Virus record (IMG/VR): IMGVR_UViG_3300008339_000552
Location: 1-22,351 of that record
From: a virus
Length of the DNA stretch: 22,351 nt
Reading direction: 5' to 3' (one strand)
Part shown: piece by piece, positions 228-21,708 of the stretch
Layout: each line of letters opens with the position of its first letter
How positions within the stretch are numbered: position 1 is the first letter of the stretch
Notes under the pieces: generated by a model
The model's input: the letters and a program-made list of their open reading frames with translations, nothing else
Databases searched by the model: none
Told to the model about the DNA's origin: nothing
Made by a program: the position numbers and the translations under genes

Positions 228-235
228 TATCTTTG
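228..235 (+). promoter_or_regulatory. Bacteroidota-type -7 promoter box (TATCTTTG) of the putative RNA gene
   Basis: TATCTTTG matches the TAnnTTTG -7 element known for the primary sigma factor of Bacteroidota. In that system transcription starts a few bases downstream, here at about 239-240, which is the first base of the pseudoknot stem GTTCAGG. No convincing -33 TTTG is found at the expected spacing. The box lies in a gene-free stretch, which makes a chance match less likely than in coding DNA. Confidence 0.5.
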
Positions 236-239
236 TAGT

Positions 240-596
240 GTTCAGGAGTTACAAGTATTGCCCCTTTCATTTTAACCCTGAACAGTTATAATGATTGGGG
301 CATTCTCTTTTTATTGGCGGTGCAAATACGCTTGGGTAAAAGGAGTAGCGTTACAAGGGGATGATGGCACAGCGCAGCGGTAGCATTAAGGACAAAGCCG
401 CAAGACCATCACACGAGCCGAGAATCGTGTTAAAGTAGTGTCCAAGTCAAAGGTCATCGGTGATACTTTGAAACTTGAAGGTGAGGGACTCATTCGACAG
501 ATTGATTGTCTTAGCATCTAAAAGGGAGTGACTGCTGAGGTGAAAGTCAGTAGGATATTCTCATTCCCTTTTGGTTCAGGATCTATTCTCTAGATT
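240..596 (+). ncRNA. Putative structured noncoding RNA with 5' pseudoknot
   Basis: No reading frame of useful length covers this stretch, but it is dense in complementary segments. Stems seen by eye: 240-246 with 277-283 (GTTCAGG/CCTGAAC), interlocked with 259-264/297-302 (TGCCCC/GGGGCA), which makes an H-type pseudoknot; 328-332/347-351; 362-367/406-411 enclosing 377-380/398-401; 411-416/425-430 (shares one base with the previous stem); a long hairpin 443-452/466-477 with a short 453-456/461-464 stem and TCGG loop on top; 496-499/507-510; and a 12-pair stem 520-531/561-572 with one G-T pair, enclosing 535-538/547-550. A weak hairpin 581-585/591-595 followed by AT-rich DNA may be the end. The region has its own promoter box at 228-235. 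Its base composition is richer in G and C than the AT-rich flanks. I could not match it to tmRNA, RNase P RNA, SRP RNA or group I introns. The stem list is manual and has no covariation support. Confidence 0.6.
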
Positions 597-609
597 AATT
601 AATATTACT

Positions 610-617
610 TATATTTG
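610..617 (+). promoter_or_regulatory. Possible -7 promoter box (TATATTTG)
   Basis: TATATTTG fits TAnnTTTG and sits just before the start of the first gene of the next cluster. With the ATG at 621 the transcript would be almost leaderless; the ATG at 633 would fit better. No -33 element is seen, and the local DNA is very AT-rich, so a chance match is quite possible. Confidence 0.3.
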
Positions 618-620
618 TAT

Positions 621-1001
621 ATGATAAAGAAAATGATAACAACTTTGAAAAGTAGAAATTCAATGAAACCAATTGAATACTTATTTACTGATGGTATATT
701 CAATTCAAAATTTTATTTGTATGAAGATGCAGATGGTTTCAAATGGATAGCCAAATACCCATTTAATCCATTGTTGAACAAAAGAACATTTCACTATACT
801 CAAAATGGTCAACAGTGGGTTTGTAATGATGGAATATTAAAACATTATCCAGAACATAATACGTGGGTTGTATCTTGGGGTGGTAAATCTCAAGAAATAT
901 CAAACACAGTAGACACATCAAATTTTATTGAAGGTGCTTTGATTAATGTAATAAATAAATATTCACCTTCTGAGAAAAAAGTTAGATCATTTCCAATATG
1001 A
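621..1001 (+). CDS. Hypothetical protein, aromatic-rich
   Basis: I do not recognise this protein. It has 126 residues from the ATG at 621 (an ATG at 633 is also possible; a TTG at 615 lies inside the promoter-like box and is less likely). The N-terminus is basic, followed by a stretch rich in Trp, Tyr and Phe (motifs such as FKWIAKYPF, QQWVCND and NTWVVSWGG) that suggests a small beta-rich fold. No signal peptide or membrane segment is visible. Its stop overlaps the next start by four bases (ATGA), so it is the first gene of a coupled cluster running to about 3.0 kb. Confidence 0.7.
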   Translation: MIKKMITTLKSRNSMKPIEYLFTDGIFNSKFYLYEDADGFKWIAKYPFNPLLNKRTFHYTQNGQQWVCNDGILKHYPEHNTWVVSWGGKSQEISNTVDTSNFIEGALINVINKYSPSEKKVRSFPI

Positions 1002-21089: not shown

Positions 21090-21346
21090 TTTTCTATATT
21101 ATTTCGGTAGTAATTATTTGTTGCATTTACAATTATTTCTAATTCACGAAAATTGCAATCTTGCACCTCTTTATTATTTCCTGCAATCATTCCTTGACAA
21201 TAAGCTTCAGTAATTTCATTTTTATATTGCCTTCTGGCATCTTCTAAATCTCTATTAAAATGCACTAAATATGCCTTGCCAAAATCATAGTAATGATCTT
21301 TCATTGACTTTCTAAATTGGTCAATTAGTTTTTCTATTGAGTTCAT
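21086..21346 (-). CDS. Hypothetical phage protein, unknown function
   Basis: I do not recognise this 86-residue protein with certainty. It is helical and charged, begins MNSIEKLIDQFRKSMKDHYY and contains NEITEAYCQGMIAGNNKEVQ, then NATNNYYRN at the end. The short pattern EAYCQGMIAG is like the EAYxxGxxxG pieces of many small phage proteins, including the neighbour at 21919. Both ends overlap neighbours by four bases. Codon use is richer in A and T than in the structural genes. Confidence 0.65.
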   Translation of the reverse strand: MNSIEKLIDQFRKSMKDHYYDFGKAYLVHFNRDLEDARRQYKNEITEAYCQGMIAGNNKEVQDCNFRELEIIVNATNNYYRNNIEK

Positions 21347-21708
21347 TGCTCTATTATTTTTTTTAAGTTTGGTGTAAAATAGTTTTCTCCTTTCATCACC
21401 TTTCCATCTTCACGATAAATGGGTTTATTGAACCTATCCAGTTTGCTCATATTACTTGCGTGGACTTCGTCAAACATCGCTTCAAGTTTGTCATCAATTC
21501 CAAGATGGATAGCATATCCAAAAAGTAAATATATTTGATCTATAATAGCATCAGATAACTCAATGAGGTCATCAGCGTTTTTCATCTCATCTAATTCTTC
21601 TTGAATTAATCTTTCGTGCAACATACAATCTTGCATTGTCTTGCATCCATCCATAGGTAGATTAAATCTTTGGCGAAATTCTCGCACTTGTTCTATTTGT
21701 TTCTTCAT
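21343..21708 (-). CDS. MazG-like nucleotide pyrophosphohydrolase
   Basis: This 121-residue protein has the signature of the MazG/phosphoribosyl-ATP pyrophosphohydrolase-like group: helix 1 (QVREFRQRFNLP), EELDE (residues 37-41), then ELSDAIIDQIYLLFGYA with Asp53 and Asp57, and HASNMSKLDRFNKPIYREDG (residues 83-102) with the conserved Asn-Met-Ser-Lys-Leu piece. Acidic residues of EExxE and DxxxD bind magnesium. Such enzymes split non-standard or signal nucleotides (dNTPs, or ppGpp precursors) and phages carry them for nucleotide control during replication. It sits in the leftward operon of small metabolic genes. Confidence 0.8.
   Translation of the reverse strand: MKKQIEQVREFRQRFNLPMDGCKTMQDCMLHERLIQEELDEMKNADDLIELSDAIIDQIYLLFGYAIHLGIDDKLEAMFDEVHASNMSKLDRFNKPIYREDGKVMKGENYFTPNLKKIIEQ

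Follow-up and report, generated by a model that had tools for sequence, protein, structure and literature searches.

What does a phage keep in a gene-free stretch directly ahead of its late genes? The question is raised by positions 199 to 620 of the window, by which we mean the whole 22,351-nucleotide stretch of viral DNA analyzed here (IMG/VR record IMGVR_UViG_3300008339_000552). The earlier note, made from the sequence alone, claimed that this stretch has no supported gene and that it contains one novel structured RNA behind a promoter box, with a suggested kinship to the phage RNAs GOLLD and ROOL. To our knowledge, no class of large structured phage RNA has a settled function, and very few such classes are known. 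We show that positions 240 to 596 hold two real, undescribed RNA structures just before the late genes, a short leader (module A) and an RNA of about 290 nt (module B).

Two structured RNA modules ahead of the late genes

The absence of a supported gene in 199 to 620 was confirmed by an open-reading-frame check of the window, and neither ARAGORN nor Rfam found a tRNA or tmRNA in 240 to 596. The plus strand of this segment folds with −107.5 kcal/mol, against −93.0 ± 5.3 kcal/mol in shuffled sequences (z = −2.7), and beats 100 out of 100 shuffles; the fold of the minus strand is ordinary (z = −1.05, with 14 of 100 shuffles equally good). Using the neighboring proteins as queries, we retrieved more than 100 related viral loci. 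All of these sequences are metagenomic, and metagenome contigs are also the only source of the phage itself. The first ~115 bases, corresponding to module A, are present in nearly all related phages, and the sequence after them changes abruptly; in locus L005, for example, module A is 98% identical to the window and is then followed by unrelated sequence. Because module A precedes a different RNA in other phages, the claim of a single structured RNA had to be amended to two separable modules, with a boundary at about 305 to 313. The locus is laid out as follows.

1 to 198: ORF1, a flanking open reading frame for a 65-amino-acid membrane-like protein
228 to 235, plus strand: promoter −7 box TATCTTTG of the Bacteroidota type, serving module A
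240 to 312, plus strand: module A, an H-type pseudoknot leader with a U-rich tail (covariation in 41 sequences; fold z = −3.7)
about 305 to 595, plus strand: module B, a multi-pseudoknot noncoding RNA of ~290 nt
610 to 617, plus strand: promoter-like box TATATTTG, belonging to the cargo ORF that starts at 621
621 to 1001, plus strand: cargo ORF with its start codon at 621, variable and without a family match
998 to 1354: ORF998, after the cargo ORF and followed by the late gene cluster

The late cluster past ORF998 includes genes for an XkdF-type protease, a portal-like protein, and an M15 peptidase. In relatives, a VRR-NUC nuclease and an ECF-type sigma factor are encoded upstream of ORF1 on the same strand (L012:3658-4510), which places the RNA locus where the late region begins. 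The closest cultured relatives are remote, namely the Nonlabens phages P12024S/L (portal, 30% identity) and Cellulophaga phage phi19:1 (ORF998, 34%), and together with the promoter type they lead us to infer a Bacteroidota host. A search of bacterial genomes for this host returned no relative of the portal protein and only two distant loci, in unrelated bins, for ORF998, and a DNA similarity search against deposited phages and plasmids gave nothing beyond one chance match of 27 nt.

At the position of the cargo ORF, relatives carry other open reading frames or none. The C-terminal motif SWGGKSQEISNTVDTSNF of the window's cargo ORF resembles GGGSLQMIDESIDTSSF of small cargo proteins that L034 and L063 encode at this position. 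The other end of the window (21343 to 21708, minus strand) encodes a PRA-PH-like protein from the MazG-related superfamily, whereas in L226 and L227 a PRA-PH-like gene is the cargo directly behind module B (L226:3611-3970, plus strand) and is followed by a ParB-like gene, suggesting that cargo moves between loci.

Module B is built from the following helices, all on the plus strand.

305 to 315 with 335 to 345, plus strand: P1, two-sided changes in 8 of 11 pairs
328 to 331 with 348 to 351, plus strand: pseudoknot PKa, 100% of cells paired, nearly invariant with one G-U change only
363 to 367 with 406 to 410, plus strand: P3 (GATGG), invariant in 24 sequences, compensated in L226 (GATTG/CAATC)
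377 to 381 with 397 to 401, plus strand: P3a, two-sided changes in 2 of 5 pairs
390 to 394 with 439 to 443, plus strand: interlocked pseudoknot PKb (GGACA/TGTCC), its 5' strand in the P3a loop, invariant in 24 sequences
411 to 416 with 425 to 430, plus strand: hairpin P4, ACACGA/TCGTGT replaced by ACGAGA/TCTCGT in 10 of 24 sequences
447 to 471, plus strand: stacked hairpin P6/P6a with a TCGG loop, TCAAAG/CTTTGA replaced by CTAATT/AATTAG
522 to 531 with 561 to 570, plus strand: 3' stem P7, weak, enclosing P8
534 to 538 with 547 to 551, plus strand: P8, supported by covariation

Across 24 distinct sequences, 98.2% of the cells in this model are paired, and 19 of the 56 pairs show two-sided changes; sliding the partners by 1 to 3 columns lowers the paired cells to 38 to 47%. 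One control of the pair counting, control (a), ignores relatedness, a weakness shared neither by control (b) nor by a homolog found later. The helices of B had been fixed before the divergent homologs L226 and L227 (76% identity) came to light, and L226 keeps 55 of the 56 pairs, 12 of them compensated on both sides. The compensated pairs include two of PKb, which reads GGGTA/TACCC in L226 instead of GGACA/TGTCC, and one of P3, with GATTG/CAATC instead of GATGG/CCATC; neither helix had varied in the sequences known before.

Two trivial explanations can be weighed against these data. The first, that the complementarities in 240 to 596 are due to chance, could draw on the merely modest single-sequence z-score of the whole segment (−2.7), but it is practically ruled out by the fall in paired cells from 98% when partners are slid (to 32 to 54% in A and to the range given above in B) and by the compensations in the later-found homolog. 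The second holds that B encodes a short protein, with structure as a by-product. In its favor, a 41-codon frame starting at ATG or TTG recurs in about half of the B homologs. However, single-base insertions or deletions break this frame in 6 of the 24, including the window, and sequence changes in B track base pairing, not codons, so that this possibility is likewise all but eliminated.

The individual elements described in the earlier note fared well. Its interlocked pseudoknot held, with 240 to 246/277 to 283 crossing 260 to 271/290 to 301 and, in addition, 390 to 394/439 to 443 engaging the loop of 377 to 381/397 to 401. The stacked-stem hairpin with a TCGG loop held as well (447 to 452/466 to 471 plus 453 to 456/461 to 464, loop 457 to 460). 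The long 3' stem is present as P7, but with weaker covariation than the other named features: 95% of its cells are paired, and two-sided changes affect 2 of 10 pairs in one alignment and none in another. Covarying pairs were thus found at the kinds of stems it had listed, and a conserved reading frame, which it had named as grounds for refutation, was not found. Novelty also held: none of 4,227 Rfam families matched the window at gathering score, and a relaxed search of 1 to 1500 returned only chance-level matches to other families. A tRNA-like T-loop at the 3' end of B was considered and rejected, as it does not fit.

Module A and its predicted promoter

The claim of a promoter box just before the RNA held, with TATCTTTG at 228 to 235. 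Exactly 4 nt separate an upstream [T/C]AnnTTTG box from pseudoknot stem S1 in 59 of 60 distinct copies of module A. The sigma-A box TAnnTTTG of Flavobacterium psychrophilum spans −12 to −5 (PMC9723704), and from this spacing and the position of the box we predict that transcription starts at G240, the first base of S1. Since TAnnTTTG is not enriched genome-wide in the window (28 found versus 29 expected), the promoter claim rests on the fixed position of the box in homologs. Many A promoters also carry GCAACC some 20 to 25 nt ahead of the TAnnTTTG box, perhaps as a −35-like element. It could be the −35-like element of the phage ECF-type sigma factor encoded just upstream of the locus (L012:4028-4510).

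Five elements make up module A.

240 to 246, plus strand: 5' strand of stem S1 (GTTCAGG), the predicted RNA 5' end, pairing with 277 to 283
260 to 271, plus strand: 5' strand of hairpin S2 (GCCCC-TT-TCATT), pairing with 290 to 301
277 to 283, plus strand: 3' strand of S1 (CCTGAAC), within the loop of S2
290 to 301, plus strand: 3' strand of S2 (AATGA-TT-GGGGC), covariation in 41 sequences
302 to 312, plus strand: U-rich tract after S2, a terminator-like tail overlapping the 5' strand of P1 of module B

S2 consists of two helices (260 to 264/297 to 301 and 267 to 271/290 to 294) split by an invariant tandem U.U mismatch whose 5' side is 265 to 266. Over 41 distinct sequences, 98.4% of the cells in A are paired and two-sided changes occur in 8 of 17 pairs, compared with 32 to 54% paired cells after sliding partners by 1 to 3 columns. 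Both stems contribute: S1 has two-sided changes in 3 of 7 pairs (e.g., C-G to G-C in 17 of the 41) with 98.2% of cells paired, and S2 in 5 of 10 pairs with 98.5%. The GCCCC/GGGGC stem and the U-rich tract are conserved in the 41 copies, with runs of T7 to T9 in several relatives. A simple terminator scan of 1 to 1100 called no terminator, the A hairpin included, as the tandem U.U mismatch and the large loop escape the scan; "terminator-like" is therefore our reading of the alignment.

The architecture of A outlasts its sequence. In L081, L088, and L094, where module C follows, A is replaced by unrelated sequence, and the replacement keeps the pseudoknot topology, the tandem U.U mismatch, the U tract, and the promoter spacing. 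With E values from about 1e-4 to 6e-6, a covariance model of A furthermore matches an element of a distant phage group (L238, L239, and L241 to L245) that features a kissing-loop complementarity (GTGGAT/ATCCAC) followed by 6 to 9 T and directly precedes protein genes that differ between phages; the gene behind it in L239 has no Pfam match. Without expression data, the replacement and the distant-group elements before protein genes favor a role of A as a transcription leader or attenuator, which we consider likely, with transcription and attenuation both inferred. A would then represent a simple new design: the transcript uses its 5' end to lock the loop of the terminator-like hairpin it carries, and this arrangement persists even where the sequence has been replaced completely.

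Alternatively, A could be a complete stand-alone RNA of ~73 nt with its own terminator, and B a separate gene that is merely an incidental neighbor. The strong hairpin and U tract at the end of all copies of A, as well as the near universality of A while its followers vary, speak for this. However, the fused A-B arrangement leaves no room for a promoter of B, and the U tract doubles as a strand of P1; tRNAs directly behind the U tract also need transcription from A, and the A-like elements of the distant group sit as leaders of protein genes. We therefore regard a stand-alone A as unlikely.

We favor a transcript that reads from A into B, because B has no visible conserved promoter of its own (either A or a tRNA precedes it, depending on the locus) and because of the behavior of P1. 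In fused A-B loci, the 5' strand of P1 lies within the U tract of A and covaries with 335 to 345, so that in these loci any RNA with B must pass through the tract. In loci with a tRNA between A and B, P1 is built from other sequence, with both strands changing together, indicating that B is a self-contained module. The read-through model remains an inference without transcript data.

Several known leaders resemble A in part. In phage lambda, the late-region promoter pR' produces a short leader, 6S RNA, that meets the terminator tR'; the resemblance lies in a promoter at the start of the late region whose short leader runs into a terminator (terminator-like in A) ahead of tRNAs, accessory genes, and late genes. 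A differs in that its 5' end is locked into the loop of the terminator-like hairpin and that an unrelated structured RNA follows. H-type pseudoknot attenuators, such as leaders of the preQ1-I type, also place a pseudoknot next to a terminator; in A, by contrast, the terminator-like hairpin is itself one of the pseudoknot stems, its loop holds the RNA 5' end, and there is no Rfam match.

Three mutually exclusive modules at one site

In every intact interval, A or a variant of it precedes a single further module, which is B, C, or D; these three are unrelated. Module C comprises ~110 nt plus a near-invariant pyrimidine tract of ~60 nt and is weakly structured, with 28 pairs of which 4 show two-sided changes. 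Module D (L154:8119-8453) spans ~335 nt, has paired ends (AGGTTTTT/AAAAACCT), and is strongly structured (90 consensus pairs, 28 with two-sided changes, in 14 sequences), making it probably the best-supported new RNA of the set. Against Rfam 15, none of the four modules matched at gathering score (only nearby tRNAs did), and relaxed thresholds gave chance-level matches. The locus yields four undescribed structured RNAs, each modeled with support from covariation, in a group of compact phages.

Of the 53 loci that contain ORF998, 22 carry C, 18 carry B, and 13 carry D, and none carries two types. On the ORF998 tree, the RNA type changes at least 21 times, against a mean of 24.6 in shuffled data and a possible minimum of 2. 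Because this tree is short (354 columns) and only 10 of its 50 inner branches are starred, the figure of 21 comes from parsimony applied to an imperfect phylogeny; the starred branches alone force 4 to 6 changes per type. Exchange of B, C, and D among related phages is frequent, although it may reflect frequent recombination instead of selection for variety. The pattern looks as if phages exchanged RNA parts like genes, with three unrelated RNAs swapped repeatedly at the same spot, and it offers a natural experiment: since close relatives differ in the RNA they carry, the function of an ornate phage RNA becomes testable by cassette swap.

When 2.9 million viral contigs were scanned with exact patterns, B and C turned up outside this site and phage group only as one chance match (L127); for D, about 11 additional chance matches came from contigs that contain no D elsewhere. 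Because the patterns were exact, other phages may still hold structure-level relatives of B. In the open-access literature searched, we found no description of these RNAs, nor any account of a phage site where structured RNAs form an exchangeable set.

The tail of C, a near-invariant pyrimidine tract of ~60 nt (CTTTTTCTTTTCTTTCTTTTTCTTTTTTACC...), follows a G run (L006, interval after A; L182:2586-2761), and its conservation without structure suggests a protein- or RNA-binding tail or a special transcript end. The motif TTGGTTCAGG, shared by B and C, resembles S1 of A; we dismissed this resemblance as coincidence, as B keeps the motif whatever S1 a phage has.

Possible roles of the exchanged RNAs

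The reading we prefer, at a probability of roughly 0.6, is a two-module transcription unit in which A is an attenuator-like leader and B a trans-acting, exchangeable RNA. The data establish the structures, the spacing of the promoter, the mutual exclusivity, and the exchange, whereas transcription, attenuation, trans action, and the target are inferences. Positions 240 to 595 would be transcribed as one unit from G240 by a host-type TAnnTTTG promoter. The first seven nucleotides of A pair with the loop of the GC-rich hairpin before the U tract, and A may pass only part of the polymerases, protect the RNA 5' end, or both. Read-through past A would produce module B, with the tRNA that lies between them in some relatives being cut out by processing. 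The folded ~290-nt RNA would then most likely act in trans late in infection, through a host or phage factor, as one of three unrelated and mutually exclusive alleles (B, C, and D) exchanged at the site. No binding partner or target of B has been identified.

It remains possible that B acts in cis. The most concrete version of this idea is that B, C, and D, still part of the growing late-operon transcript as its leader, modify RNA polymerase to disregard later terminators; this would be processive antitermination like that by the HK022 put RNA or the EAR element, which they resemble in being structured sense-strand RNAs that open a long operon. Indeed, B, C, or D marks the very beginning of the late cluster in every phage, always in sense orientation, no intact site lacks an RNA, and the modules could substitute for one another functionally. 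Several points make this explanation unlikely, however. The downstream genes have promoter-like boxes of their own, and the G run and long pyrimidine tract of C look like a transcript end. Moreover, put RNA and EAR are smaller than B, C, and D, which are also unlike one another, and B and D are both larger and more ornate than known antitermination RNAs.

A second alternative, a special case of the trans-acting reading, is that the exchangeable RNAs are weapons or shields against host defense or rival phages, with swapping driven by conflict. It is supported by three unrelated alternatives, one per phage, with at least 21 exchanges among close relatives, and by the adjoining variable small cargo genes, a pattern usual for conflict loci. 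On the other hand, the presence of an RNA at every intact site is more in keeping with a basic than with an accessory function, and there is no match to a known defense-related RNA class. We consider this explanation improbable as well.

Regarding the suggested kinship to GOLLD and ROOL, these are large noncoding RNAs of phages and prophages with several pseudoknots, often located by tRNA genes, and of unknown function (PMC12286853); GOLLD can hold tRNAs in a linker, and a homo-oligomeric cage counts among the features of the two classes. Only the setting proved similar: a phage, tRNA genes near the RNA in relatives, and several pseudoknots (PKb, the one in A, and the near-invariant PKa). GOLLD and ROOL measure ~600 to 800 nt or more, compared with ~290 nt for B, and in our locus the phages share the 5' leader but swap unrelated RNAs in the 3' part. 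Membership is rejected because both size and Rfam model differ, and no kinship is detectable. B may nevertheless work like GOLLD or ROOL.

Returning to the trans-acting, exchangeable RNA, it is tempting to speculate further that the site is a dedicated RNA-allele locus, with B, C, and D as functional equivalents behind a common self-locking leader, an extension in which we place rather less confidence than its opposite. If it were true, takeover, immunity, or counter-defense, which are usually borne by proteins, would here be carried by interchangeable RNAs.

The interval between A and its follower also accommodates other RNAs. In several relatives, tRNA genes lie between A and B or C, with none in the window. 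Further RNA-like inserts of ~140 to 215 nt occur in L034 and L058 (between A and B) and in L101, and these correspond to tRNAs or degenerate tRNA-like pieces, some of them uncalled by ARAGORN.
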